Notes under the pieces: generated by a model
What the model saw: the letters and a program-made list of their open reading frames with translations, nothing else
Database searches by the model: none
Told to the model about the DNA's origin: nothing
IMG/VR virus record: IMGVR_UViG_3300007735_000637
Coordinates: 1 to 33,398 of that record
Source: a virus
Strand: one strand, 5' to 3'
Length of the DNA stretch: 33,398 nucleotides
Shown here: piece after piece, positions 1,586-16,853 of the stretch
Layout: the number at the start of each line of letters is the position of its first letter
Numbering within the stretch: position 1 is the first letter of the stretch
Program-made: the position numbers and the translations under genes

Positions 1586-1796
1586 CGAGCAGCTGACCCG
1601 CGACCGCGCCATGCTGCTGGCCGAGGTTGAGCGGCTGCGCGCACAGATAGTCTCTCTTGAGGCTACCGGCGCAGAAGCGGCTGATGAGATTGATCGGCTG
1701 CGGGCGACGCTGACATCAATCGCGGCAAACACATGCTGCGAAGAATGCCAAGAAGCCAAGCGAGTGGCGCGCTCTGCACTGGAGGTCAAGCTATGA
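1578..1796 (+). CDS. Short coiled-coil protein (72 aa)
   Basis: ATG 1578 follows GGGGAGG (1563-1569). Residues 5-50 have heptad-like leucine spacing (LLAEVERLRAQIVSLE then EIDRLRATL), which suggests a coiled coil. The C-terminus carries CCEEC, a cluster that could bind metal. The next gene is ATGA-coupled and is also a coiled-coil protein with repeated ERLRAQ/EVERL segments, so the two may be related or act together. Function unknown. Confidence 0.65.
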   Translation: MSDEQLTRDRAMLLAEVERLRAQIVSLEATGAEAADEIDRLRATLTSIAANTCCEECQEAKRVARSALEVKL

Positions 1797-2398
1797 CCCG
1801 AACATACACCCCACCGCAAATCGCGGACGGCCTCCTGGCTGGCGATTTCATCCGCGAAACAGAATTCGCGCTGGCGTTTGAGATCGAGCGCCTCCGCGCA
1901 TTCGAGGCCGCGCACAAGCAGTTGCAGGCCGCGCTTGACTCCGCGATCCGCGAGCGCGACGAGGCGCGGGCCGAGGTCGAGCGGCTACATCAGGCGCATC
2001 AAGCCGCATGTGAGGGCGGGGACCTGTTGCGGGAAGAGATCGAGAAGCTAACCCGCGAGCGCGACGAGGCGCGGACGGTCATCTCGACGCTGGAGATCGT
2101 CGGTAAAGCGGCCGACGACGAGAGGGCGCAACTGCGGGCCGAGGTCGAGCGGCTGATCGAATGGCAATCAATAAACCATTCGGAGCAGCACAAGCTTGGA
2201 TGGTCAATGACCGAGTTTTGCGAAGGGAAGCGCGACCATTTACATGAAATGTGGGAACGTCCACCAAGCCTTGATTACGGCATTGCTCATATTGAAGCAG
2301 AGATAAAGCGGCTGCGCGCCCACAACGCCCGCCTCCGCGCCCAAATCGCCGAGTATTTCGCCGAGCCAACGACGCATCTGGTGGAGGACGCGGAGTGA
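1793..2398 (+). CDS. Long coiled-coil early protein (201 aa)
   Basis: ATG 1793 is chosen because it forms an ATGA overlap with the preceding stop and follows GGAGG (1781-1785). An upstream ATG in the same frame would sit deep inside the previous gene. Residues from about 30 to 135 are strongly coiled-coil, with repeated segments (RERDEARAEVERL, then TRERDEARTVIS, then RAEVERLIEW). The DNA encoding RERDEARA is itself nearly repeated (around 1951 and 2056), suggesting internal duplication. A less repetitive middle part with SINHSEQHKLGWSMTEFCEG follows, then a second coiled coil. No known domain. It ends in a GTGA overlap. Confidence 0.7.
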   Translation: MTRTYTPPQIADGLLAGDFIRETEFALAFEIERLRAFEAAHKQLQAALDSAIRERDEARAEVERLHQAHQAACEGGDLLREEIEKLTRERDEARTVISTLEIVGKAADDERAQLRAEVERLIEWQSINHSEQHKLGWSMTEFCEGKRDHLHEMWERPPSLDYGIAHIEAEIKRLRAHNARLRAQIAEYFAEPTTHLVEDAE

Positions 2399-2664
2399 CC
2401 CACCACCGCCCCGCCCCTCCGCCACTCCGCCTCTACCTGCGCGCCACCGGCTTCCAGGCCATCACCATGCCCTGGGGCCGGGCCTACTACTCGCCCTGGC
2501 CCGCCGATCCCGGCTTGATCGCGCACGAACAGGCCCACCTCGACCAACTGGCGCGCCTTGGGCCGGTGCGGTTCGTCGCGCGCTATCTCTGGCTGCTGGC
2601 CCGCCACGGCTACGAAGCGCACCCGATGGAGCGCGAGGCGCGCGAGATCAGCGGTCACCGATGA
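2395..2664 (+). CDS. Small HExxH putative metallopeptidase-like protein (89 aa)
   Basis: A GTG start at 2395 overlaps the previous stop (GTGA). The central segment LIAHEQAHLDQLARLGPVRF contains HEQAH, the HExxH zinc-binding signature, followed by a YLWLLARHGYEAHPMEREAR segment that is typical of a small phage and bacterial family with this arrangement. The downstream Glu (PMEREA) could be the third zinc ligand. There is no signal peptide and the protein is far shorter than a classical protease. Activity is inferred from the motif only. It is ATGA-coupled to the next gene. Confidence 0.7.
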   Translation: MTHHRPAPPPLRLYLRATGFQAITMPWGRAYYSPWPADPGLIAHEQAHLDQLARLGPVRFVARYLWLLARHGYEAHPMEREAREISGHR

Positions 2665-2849
2665 GCCTGCCGCCCGGCGTCCGGATTGAAGACCCGTGCG
2701 CCTACTGCGGGCGCCGGCTGGCCGACGTCGTCGCGCTCGGCTGCGGCTCGCAGGAGATGCGCGATGCGGATCGGTACTGCCATGTGGTCGACTGGGCGCG
2801 ACGGCAGGGCGGAAAATTCGGCCAAGGCCAGCCCAAATCGGCGCGGTGA
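2661..2849 (+). CDS. Small zinc-finger-like protein (62 aa)
   Basis: This is the last gene of the rightward early operon, joined by ATGA to the HExxH gene. PCAYCGRRL gives a CxxC pair near residue 13, with further Cys at about 28 and 40 (ALGCGS, RYCHVVDW) that could complete a zinc site. No family is recognised. It ends 12 bp before the convergent endolysin gene. A CCGGT-CA-ACCGG palindrome lies at the junction but is too tight to be a convincing terminator. Confidence 0.65.
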   Translation: MSLPPGVRIEDPCAYCGRRLADVVALGCGSQEMRDADRYCHVVDWARRQGGKFGQGQPKSAR

Positions 2850-2861
2850 CGCCATGGCCGG

Positions 2862-3245
2862 TCAACCGGGATACGTCGCCCAGGGAAGCTGAAAATGCGG
2901 CCCGTCGAAGAAGCCCTTAAAATTCCCGCCCCATTCAACCGGCACGCCCTCGGCATTAGCCGCCGTCAGGATCTCGGCCGCAAGCTCTTCGTAAGCGGCG
3001 CGATCCCACTTCGCCGCGCCTTTATCGGTAAGGGCCACCAGATCGACCGCATGGCCGGTAAGGTGCCGGGACCGCATGGTCTGCGAGCGCCCCGCCGCCA
3101 CAAGCTCGGCCTGCCGGTCCATCGATCGGACGCCTTCGGTGACGCGCCACGGGATCGAGCCATCGCGCGCGGCGCGCTCGATCACACGCACGAGGTCGGG
3201 ATGAACGCCGACGAGGCGTTGCCGGTCGCGCTCCGACAGCGTCAC
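2862..3245 (-). CDS. M15-family peptidoglycan peptidase (endolysin)
   Basis: This 127-aa enzyme resembles M15 L-alanyl-D-glutamate or D-Ala-D-Ala peptidases. It shows SRHLTGHAVD (residues 59-68, the SxHxxGxAxD zinc motif, ligands H61 and D68), EWGGNF (about 104-109, with the catalytic acid) and DGPHFQ (114-119, ligand H117). It cleaves peptide cross-links of the cell wall at the end of infection. There is no signal peptide, so export through the holin just upstream is expected. It overlaps the holin stop by ATGA and is the last gene of the leftward late operon. The length is normal for single-domain phage M15 endolysins. Confidence 0.93.
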   Translation of the reverse strand: MTLSERDRQRLVGVHPDLVRVIERAARDGSIPWRVTEGVRSMDRQAELVAAGRSQTMRSRHLTGHAVDLVALTDKGAAKWDRAAYEELAAEILTAANAEGVPVEWGGNFKGFFDGPHFQLPWATYPG

Positions 3246-3634
3246 TTTGCGGCGACGCCCCTAAGCTTCTCGAAGGTACGCAGGCCGCCAAGCCCCAGCA
3301 AGGCAAACATCAGCTCCCACAAATTGTTGTCAAGCGCCGGAGGCTTAGCGATTGGCTTGCCCATCACAAAAGCAATCCACATACCGACCGGCACCAGAAG
3401 GTAGGTGTAAGCAACCGCTGCCGCGCAGACCCAGCCGATGGCGGGCCGCCATCCGCCGACAAAAAGCGATCCGCTCTCAGCCTCGGCTTTGTTGAGCTCG
3501 GTTTGCGCCCTATCGGCAGCAAACAGAGCATCGCGCATCTCGGCTTCAGCCTTTGCCTTGGCCGCCGGATCTGGAACGAATTTGTCGAGAACCTTCAACC
3601 CGGCCGCGACTGCGTCATCAATGCCAAATGCCAC
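3242..3634 (-). CDS. Holin of the 3TM gene-transfer-agent type
   Basis: The 130-aa product has an amphipathic, charged N-terminal helix (to about residue 55), then GWRPAIGWVCAAAVAYTYLL (61-80), a second hydrophobic stretch through about 92, and a third at roughly 104-119. The order (AxAEAEMRxAL helix, GWRPxIGW, three membrane segments) fits the GTA_holin_3TM family common in alphaproteobacterial phages and gene transfer agents. It should form inner-membrane lesions that release the endolysin encoded immediately downstream (ATGA overlap). A 12-nt gap separates it from the small membrane protein upstream. Confidence 0.85.
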   Translation of the reverse strand: MAFGIDDAVAAGLKVLDKFVPDPAAKAKAEAEMRDALFAADRAQTELNKAEAESGSLFVGGWRPAIGWVCAAAVAYTYLLVPVGMWIAFVMGKPIAKPPALDNNLWELMFALLGLGGLRTFEKLRGVAAK

Positions 3635-15153: not shown

Positions 15154-16074
15154 TCAGGCGATCAGCACGCCGCTGAACTGCGGCCCGCTGCTGGTGAGGT
15201 TGCCGGCCCAGCCGATCAGCTTGACGATGGCGTCCTGGTTGACCGCCTGACGCTCGCCCCCGATGGGAACGAAATTCCGGTCGGCGTGCGGCCGGAAATG
15301 CAGGTATTTGGTGTTCAAGAACCACATATGGTTCGCCGTCGCCGCCGAACCGATACCGCCGTCGAGGACGACATCGGAGGCCATGCCCGCGCCGTAGTAT
15401 TTGAGCGAGGCGAAGCCCGCGCCGGCCATGCTGGAGCCGCTGTCGGAGATGCGCTGAATCGACTGCAGGGATTGCAGATAGAGGCGGTAGTAGTTGTTGT
15501 CCGCCACGATCAGGTCCGGCTTGTCGGTGCCGCGGATCAGCTGCACCGCGACCGAATCCATATACTGCTGGATGTTCGACGCGGTGACGGCAGAGCCGCC
15601 GTTGGTCGTGCCGGAATAGGCGACCGAGCGCCAGAACGACCACGTCACGCGGCTGATGCCGCCATACGTGCCGGTCGACGGGCTGTCGGGAACCGCCGCG
15701 GCAAGGCCGGTGATGTTCTTGCCGCTGTTGCCCGTGCCGTCGAGGTAGATGTCGCTGCCGATGCGGTTGGCCAGCTGCGCCTCCGCGACGGCCATGCGGC
15801 CATCCAGCAGGTCGATGATGGCCTCCTTGCCCGAGTTCTGGATCATCTCCAGGCCCGAGATCGACACCGCCGAAGCGTACTGCGTGATGCTGAACTGCGC
15901 CGCGCTGATCGGCGAGTTCTGCGACACGTTCAGCACTTCGTAGCCCGAGTAGCTGTTCGTGTTGTTCGTCGTGGTGTCGTTGTACATGATCTCCTGCAAG
16001 ATCACGTTACCGCCCGAGAACGTCTTGACGTTCCCGCGCTCCTTGAGGCGACGCAGCAGGGCGTTGTTGTTGGT
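15154..16074 (-). CDS. Major capsid protein, exon 2 (306 codons plus stop)
   Basis: This exon carries most of the coat protein, starting TNNNALLRRLKERGNVKTF and continuing GGNVILQEIMYND, YSGYEVLNVSQNSPISAAQF, LEMIQNSGKEAIIDLLDGRM and DLIVADNNYYRLYLQSLQSI, patterns typical of a podovirus/alphaphage major capsid family. An ATG at 16113 opens the same frame but lies inside the intron, so it is not the real start. The first 27 codons are at 16773-16853, and removing 16075-16772 restores LADNV-TNNNALLRRL without a frame change. The mature protein would be 333 aa. Confidence 0.9.
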   Translation of the reverse strand, partial: TNNNALLRRLKERGNVKTFSGGNVILQEIMYNDTTTNNTNSYSGYEVLNVSQNSPISAAQFSITQYASAVSISGLEMIQNSGKEAIIDLLDGRMAVAEAQLANRIGSDIYLDGTGNSGKNITGLAAAVPDSPSTGTYGGISRVTWSFWRSVAYSGTTNGGSAVTASNIQQYMDSVAVQLIRGTDKPDLIVADNNYYRLYLQSLQSIQRISDSGSSMAGAGFASLKYYGAGMASDVVLDGGIGSAATANHMWFLNTKYLHFRPHADRNFVPIGGERQAVNQDAIVKLIGWAGNLTSSGPQFSGVLIA

Positions 16075-16772
16075 CCTTGCCTTACGGCCCGGCTCTTTAT
16101 CCGGGCCCTGCATCTTATGATTCGATGCAGAGGAGACTATCTCATCGCCAGTTTCGCTCGCTTGGTTGCGCTGATCTTTGCGCCGTGCCCTTTTGGCACC
16201 CCAAGCTGCGTTAATCTACGTTTCTCGTTGCTTTCGGCGCTTGGGCGGTAGCCATTTGCCACCCTAGCCCCTGCCGCCTTGGCCTGCGCCCCCAAAGGGA
16301 GCGAGAAAGAGATTTCGTTTTCGTTCAGAAGCAACCCGCGACTGCGGTATTCCTTCATCCAGAACAACTCTCTTTCGCGCTTCACGATCACCGAAACGTC
16401 ACCCGGCAAAACTTCCACCGGCTTGATCTGAAACTTGTCGGCGTGATCGTTCCACGCTGCCTGCAACCGTACCGAAGAATGCTTTCCGGCTTTCAAAAGG
16501 CAGCGATGCTCTCGCATCCTTTTCCCTATCCTGCCAGCGGTGCAGCCGATGTAGGCCGCGCCCGTCAAACCATCCTCCAGCTTGTAGATCGTCACCATTC
16601 GGGATTCCCCTCTGTGGTTTGATAGTGGCGCCCCGCGCTCGTGGGATTTGGCTTCCGCCTCGTCCTAGTCGTTACACCTTCCGCAGCCCTTGGCTATCCT
16701 CTGCGGCTTGGCTCGGTATTGGCATTCCAGCTTTTTACCGAATTCACGGGGTTTTACAACGTCTGGGAGTTA
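16075..16772 (-). ncRNA. Group I self-splicing intron in the major capsid gene (698 nt)
   Basis: Exon bases ACAACGTT (minus strand, 16780-16773) pair over eight positions with the internal guide GACGTTGT (16763-16756). The last pair is the U.G wobble that marks a group I 5' splice site. Core segments read on the minus strand: GTGAATTCGGT, AATACCGAGCCAAGCC, a CCGCAG/CTGCGG stem (16681-16706), GGAAGGTGTAACGACTAG with GACTA at 16670-16666, and the partner TAGTC at 16139-16135 forming P7. Two perfect 7-bp hairpins follow (16108-16130 and 16086-16107), and the intron ends in G (16075). An in-frame TAA sits at its first three bases. The order of segments matches phage and organellar group I introns of the IA-like kind. 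The open reading frame lies between the two P7 strands, probably in the P8 loop. Confidence 0.92.
16137..16598 (-). CDS. GIY-YIG homing endonuclease encoded in the intron, 153 aa
   Basis: The N-terminal catalytic domain shows IYK (residues 4-6), AYIG (15-18), the conserved basic helix GRIGKRMREHR with R27, a Glu in RERELFWMKEY (about residue 77) and the LNEN motif (91-94). The C-terminal part (GVPKGHGAKISATKRAKLAM) resembles NUMOD3-type DNA-binding repeats. The enzyme would cut intronless capsid alleles near the insertion point and so spread the intron. AGAGGGGA lies 8 nt before the ATG. The stop codon TAG (16139-16137) lies inside the intron's P7 strand, so protein and ribozyme share bases. 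Confidence 0.92.
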   Translation of the reverse strand: MVTIYKLEDGLTGAAYIGCTAGRIGKRMREHRCLLKAGKHSSVRLQAAWNDHADKFQIKPVEVLPGDVSVIVKRERELFWMKEYRSRGLLLNENEISFSLPLGAQAKAAGARVANGYRPSAESNEKRRLTQLGVPKGHGAKISATKRAKLAMR

Positions 16773-16853
16773 AACGTTGTCGGCGAGTTCGCCGGAACGC
16801 GACTGGATGTTCGTCGCGATGATATCGCTGATCGAACTGTTCGCGAAAGCCAT
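16773..16853 (-). CDS. Major capsid protein, exon 1 (27 codons)
   Basis: ATG 16853 begins MAFANSSISDIIATNIQSRS, then GELADNV, the characteristic N-terminus of the same coat family whose remainder is in exon 2. It starts 21 nt after the stop of the scaffold gene, with GGAGAG just upstream of the ATG. After GTT (16775-16773) an in-frame TAA follows at once (16772-16770), so translation of unspliced RNA would give only 27 residues. The final T of the exon is the U of the U.G pair in P1. Confidence 0.9.

Follow-up and report, generated by a model that had tools for sequence, protein, structure and literature searches.

How does a phage produce its major capsid protein when the gene for it runs into a stop codon after 27 codons? 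The question is raised by an IMG/VR virus record of 33,398 bases, the whole of which was analysed and is referred to here as the window. The capsid gene starts at 16853 on the minus strand and proceeds for 27 codons to ...GCCGACAACGTT, where it meets TAA in the same frame; the reading frame is picked up again at ACCAACAAC only after 698 nt and ends with a stop at 15154. We are highly confident that this gene, which belongs to a small tailed phage of the Mx8 type with a capsid of the podovirus family, is split by a mobile group I intron predicted to splice itself out. The parts of the gene are as follows.

16773..16853, minus strand: capsid exon 1, 27 codons, ending in ACAACGTT, which is the P1 5' strand; placed by comparison with uninterrupted relatives.
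16075..16772, minus strand: group I intron, 698 nt, with the in-frame TAA first and G last; placed by empty sites, covariation, and a covariance-model match.
15154..16074, minus strand: capsid exon 2, codons 28-333 plus stop; placed by the NF033394 and phrog_9953 matches of the spliced protein.

The insertion lies between capsid codons 27 (GTT) and 28 (ACC). An earlier note, made from the letters of the window alone, had proposed that the 27-codon N terminus and the remainder from 16074 join in frame once 698 nt are removed, with an in-frame stop at the first intron base. In silico removal bore this out, giving a 333-aa protein that reads ...LADNV-TNNNALL... across the junction, with TAA as the first intron codon and GACAACGTT-ACCAACAAC as the exon join expected after splicing. 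The spliced protein matched NCBIfam NF033394 (podovirus major capsid protein) at 297 bits (cut-off, 80), covering positions 2-307 of 311, and phrog_9953 at 353 bits, covering positions 4-328 of 329; exon 2 alone matched phrog_9953 at 329 bits, from position 29. The full-length family-model match places the spliced product among the podovirus-type major capsid proteins (Mx8 family), and the profile of the capsid family showed a remote match to solved capsid structures, namely 7f38 and, more weakly, 6j3q. An AlphaFold model of the capsid of an intronless relative (pLDDT 35 on a shallow alignment) was set aside. Named capsid relatives include those of Stenotrophomonas phage BUCT555, Myxococcus Mx8 and Mx9, and Bradyrhizobium ppBjS10J-1; in Mx8, BUCT555, and ppBjS10J-1 the capsid is a single unbroken ORF across the insertion site. 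The automatic ORF of the window's capsid begins at a false ATG, 16113, within the intron.

The boundaries of the insert can be read from environmental relatives whose capsids are 95-98% identical and which are without exactly the 698-nt segment; the coat-protein alignment suggested by the earlier note shows the LADNV-TNNNALL join uninterrupted in such relatives. In these empty-site alignments, the match breaks off a single base short of the 5' splice point and picks up at the final base of the intron, without any other sequence in the gap. The base by which the match falls short is the third of codon 27. Of 84 intronless genes, 78 have GTA, GTG, GTC, or AAG (AAG in three divergent genes) at this codon and 6 have GTT, but the codon is GTT in the listed intron-bearing genes at the window site, which supplies the U that the U.G pair at the splice point requires. 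The intron of one relative, L136, lies two codons downstream, after ...TTGACT, and has its own matching guide.

The insert has the structure of a group I ribozyme, the elements of which, all on the minus strand, are given below with their counts among relatives.

16756..16763, minus strand: internal guide GACGTTGT (P1 3' strand), in which 16763 is the G of the U.G pair; from comparison and fold.
16745..16751, minus strand: P3 5' strand CCCCGTG, pairing with 16637-16631; pairing is 100% across the 45 relatives, and 4 of the 7 pairs are doubly changed.
16631..16637, minus strand: P3 3' strand CGCGGGG; from the covariation counts.
16666..16670, minus strand: P7 5' strand GACTA, pairing with 16139-16135; invariant in 45 relatives.
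16135..16139, minus strand: P7 3' strand TAGTC; invariant in 45 relatives.
16626..16630, minus strand: P8 5' strand CGCCA, pairing with TGGCG at 16150-16146; 98% paired, 5 of 5 pairs doubly changed.
16108..16130, minus strand: P9 hairpin CTGCATC...GATGCAG; from alignment and fold.
16086..16107, minus strand: P9.1 hairpin GGCCCGG-ATAAAGAG-CCGGGCC; 88% paired, 5 of 7 pairs doubly changed.

Helices were counted in an alignment of 45 distinct introns from which the endonuclease part had been taken out, with the window's helices as reference. P1, which is formed by ACAACGUU/GACGUUGU and carries the U.G pair at the splice point, was 88% paired; P4-P6 were paired in 92-96% of cells, P6a was 95% paired with all six of its pairs doubly changed, and P7.2 was paired in 70% of cells. 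Double changes in P3 are exemplified by CCCCGTG/CGCGGGG in comparison with TGGGTG/CGCCCA. Slid versions of the helices mostly dropped to 20-60% paired; P9 was the exception, at 67% as aligned and 69% in one slid version, and its low pairing is probably due to alignment slippage. P7, being invariant in the 45 relatives, contributes no covariation support of its own. P1, P3, P4, P5, P6a, P7.1, P7.2, P8, P9, and P9.1 all appear in the unconstrained minimum-energy fold, and the fold of the whole 711 nt had a z of -3.5. The features of a group I core, namely the P3-P8 and P4-P6 domains, the guanosine-binding P7 helix in its pseudoknot with P3, the U.G pair in P1, and a terminal G, are all present, and P7.1/P7.2 together with P9.1 suggest an IA-like subgroup; a P10 pairing, sought by eye in the window intron, was not found. 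The earlier note had read an 8-bp P1 with a U.G pair, the core segments, the GACTA/TAGTC pair as P7, two P9-type hairpins, and a final G from the letters, and each is recovered in the fold, in the aligned relatives, or in both.

The search with the Rfam Intron_gpI model (RF00028) that the earlier note had called for returned a match to the window intron, albeit at 21.9 bits (E of 0.0038 in a 901-base search), below the gathering score of 50 bits, which is a cut-off and not a defining feature of group I introns. The match was partial and ended at the endonuclease gene, and the low score is probably due to the 462-nt endonuclease gene splitting P8. A scan of the whole window with RF00028 gave no match at the gathering threshold and none in a permissive scan. 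With the same model, some same-site relatives were matched from one end to the other at 31-35 bits; several introns that lack an endonuclease and lie elsewhere in the capsid gene scored 50-64 bits, which equals or exceeds the cut-off. Furthermore, a covariance model built from other-position introns alone found the window intron as its single match, at 96 bits and an E of 4.8e-30. Together with the covariation and the fold, this match upholds the assignment to group I.

Within the loop of P8 lies an endonuclease gene, preceded by a small hairpin.

16137..16598, minus strand: gene for a GIY-YIG homing endonuclease of 153 aa, within the loop of P8; from PF01541, PHROG, 1ln0, and the catalytic residues.
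16601..16610, minus strand: small hairpin GGGGAATCCC over the endonuclease ribosome-binding site; from the minimum-energy fold and variation of the third pair.

The ORF scored 21.1 bits with PF01541, just below the cut-off of 22.6, matched PHROG homing endonucleases, and resembled I-TevI (1ln0) with an E of 1.7e-9. Residues Y5, Y16, G18, R27, H31, H40, E77, and N92 are invariant across 16 endonuclease relatives, and the catalytic Tyr, Tyr, Arg, His, Glu, and Asn of the GIY-YIG module, corresponding to Y5, Y16, R27, H31, E77, and N92, are all kept. The I-TevI match and these residues agree with the GIY-YIG type named in the earlier note. The C-terminal block PKGHGAKISATK is mostly invariant in the same 16 relatives, and the last codons at the 3' end of the gene double as the 3' strands of both P8 and P7. 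In the window, the ribosome-binding site upstream of the gene sits in the hairpin GGGGAAUCCC; the third pair of this hairpin is G-C in most relatives and A-U (GGAGUAUUCC type) in 12. Analogous hairpins over ribosome-binding sites restrain endonuclease translation in T4 introns, and by this analogy the hairpin probably restricts translation of the endonuclease here.

Relatives of the endonuclease offer a view of the history of the intron. At least 66 were found in IMG/VR, all beside a capsid gene of the window's family, and those with a readable position were at the window site or at most two codons away. Comparison of the window with L137 gave 92% identity in the capsid and 50% in the endonuclease; with L128, the values were 48% and 62%. 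The capsid grouping was rejected by the endonuclease data (AU p of 0.0014) and the endonuclease grouping by the capsid data (p of 5e-41), values that are supportive rather than strict since the groups were picked after the identities had been seen. The conflict between the two trees indicates that the intron moved horizontally, and these sequence comparisons are most simply read as a transfer of the intron, or of its endonuclease, between lineages. For a putative site-specific cutting of intronless alleles (homing), this spread is indirect support at most.

Other explanations of the interrupted gene were weighed against these data. A free-standing GIY-YIG gene could have broken the capsid gene without any splicing, leaving the capsid copy dead or made in two parts, and the endonuclease ORF does have its own start and ribosome-binding site. 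This is very unlikely given the covarying group I core that surrounds the ORF in 45 relatives, the empty sites that show exact removal of the insert, and the intact state of both exons in many independent contigs. Removal at the protein level, by an intein or another such element, would fit with the endonuclease being read in the same frame as exon 1, at a distance of 255 nt from the start codon. It was rejected as scarcely credible because the first intron codon is an in-frame stop, which would have to be suppressed; in addition, the reported matches of the ORF were confined to GIY-YIG endonucleases and included no splicing domain, and the RNA structure is conserved. That the record is a single metagenome contig raises the prospect of an assembly artefact fusing unrelated reads, the chance of which is negligible and which was rejected, as the same insertion at the identical base is shared by tens of independent contigs from different samples.

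The mobility of the intron deserves separate consideration, as the intron may splice and yet be immobile, with an endonuclease that is inactive or does not cut the window site. The nearest capsid relatives are mostly without the intron, and the Pfam score of the ORF is slightly below its cut-off, both of which would accord with immobility. We nevertheless consider immobility unlikely, since the ORF is complete with the I-TevI catalytic residues kept, a protein 95% identical to it is found in L087, and the C-terminal GHGAKISATK block is conserved.

The mechanism of a mobile, self-splicing group I intron is proposed on the basis of this architecture. The folded intron RNA would excise itself via two guanosine-initiated transesterifications, with P1 aligning the end of the 5' exon on the internal guide through the U.G pair and the terminal G marking the 3' site. 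Codons 27 and 28 would thereby be joined in the message for the 333-aa capsid protein. Translation of unspliced RNA would end at the TAA, and virion assembly would consequently depend on splicing. The GIY-YIG endonuclease would cut uninterrupted alleles at the conserved DNV-TNNN, upon which the intron would be copied in, and the hairpin over its ribosome-binding site would limit its translation. A self-splicing ribozyme would be placed directly in the path of virion production, and, since the capsid protein is needed in hundreds of copies per virion, an intron at this position would have to splice very efficiently. As a practical warning, gene callers will call intron-bearing capsids truncated.

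The window site is one of several in this gene. Because a list of the best 80 capsid matches favours uninterrupted genes, prevalence was estimated by searching with a fragment from the interior of the capsid, an approach that yielded 75 full-length genes (a sample rather than a census). Introns were present in 13 of these, nine with one, three with two, and one with three. In residues of the window protein, the intron sites are ~21, 27, 29 (L136), 52.67, 71.33, 82.67, 145, 151.67, and 309, where the L188 site at 52.67 is approximate and the L303 site was set by sequence reading; more divergent capsids (L149, L167, and L141) have further sites. A single capsid gene in the contig that carries L302 and L123 holds three introns. 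Three group I introns were also observed in the capsid gene of L149. The long capsid-gene insert of L141 (~2150-2900) extends as far as a second core of the group I type, which scored 51.9 bits with Rfam, and the contig of L167, which also has an interrupted capsid gene, carries three more group I matches on the opposite strand at 1612-3257 (minus). The Mx8-type capsid gene appears to be a new intron hotspot, in which related introns occupy no fewer than seven positions.

Two intron types without an endonuclease occur at more than one of these sites. Type X is found at residues 52.67 and 151.67, and the sites of type Y are residues 21 and 145; the two copies of each type are 93% identical, and CTCGGGT precedes type Y at either site. 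When IMG/VR was scanned for exact patterns, at least nine stretches with X and at least three with Y were found, and among the matches listed both were only in the window's capsid gene family and only at their named sites. Capsid genes with type X or Y introns include those of L280, L188, L117, L303, and L358-L367. The simplest reading of the two pairs is movement between sites within one gene, possibly by reverse splicing. We tentatively suggest, as a possibility that we hold to be less than even, that the capsid family is a place of intra-gene intron movement, a pattern that would fit ectopic RNA-level transposition by reverse splicing and for which endonuclease homing does not readily account. 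Alternatively, the duplicates may have come from an unsampled donor or may have arisen by DNA recombination. With seven or more sites and up to three introns, this one capsid gene offers a natural series for following intron spread with and without endonucleases.

The intron family also extends to other hosts. A 16-base core, AAGGTGTAACGACTAG, was found in at least 120 IMG/VR stretches, and 15 of the 80 examined lie in capsid genes of the window's family. Other introns with this core adjoin SU10-type capsid, Phage_capsid_3-type capsid, and family A DNA polymerase genes; related introns were seen in three capsid families. The same motif was observed beside the two unrelated capsid families in L153 and L163 (SU10_MCP) and in L189 and L193 (Phage_capsid_3).

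Among known systems, the td intron of T4 is a group IA2 intron in the thymidylate synthase gene that has an in-frame stop at its start and the GIY-YIG endonuclease I-TevI inside. The window intron likewise opens with an in-frame stop and contains an endonuclease of the I-TevI kind; it differs in that its host gene encodes a capsid and its endonuclease, located in P8, is shorter (153 aa).

The earlier note had called a capsid host gene uncommon, which is only partly right, as capsid introns are known from Tuc2009, LittleE, and crAss-like phages; Bastillevirinae introns, by contrast, are mostly in DNA polymerase genes (PMC11878797). For lactococcal phage Tuc2009, PMC3706429 mentions as a cited case a group I intron that lies in the gene of a capsid subunit, and, to the extent of that mention, the resemblance lies in intron class and host gene, with phage and gene unrelated to those of the window. 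Splicing of the intron in the major capsid gene of mycobacteriophage LittleE has been proven by RT-PCR and protein sequencing (PMC3706429). It too is a group I-type intron with an endonuclease gene, whereas its capsid family and site are different and its endonuclease is LAGLIDADG-like and on the opposite strand. In crAss-like phages, the MCP gene is a typical intron host, with group I introns typical in the MCP of the Delta group and one Zeta-group MCP split into five fragments (PMC7886860). Those phages share group I introns in the MCP with the window and belong to another virus order with another capsid and large intron-rich genomes, in contrast to the roughly 35-kb phages of the window's lineage, whose introns, to the extent tested, cluster in the capsid gene. 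Nothing turned up in a literature search for papers that combine group I introns with Mx8. The window intron therefore belongs to a known kind of element, and it is the intron-rich Mx8-type capsid gene and its site-hopping intron pairs that seem to be new.
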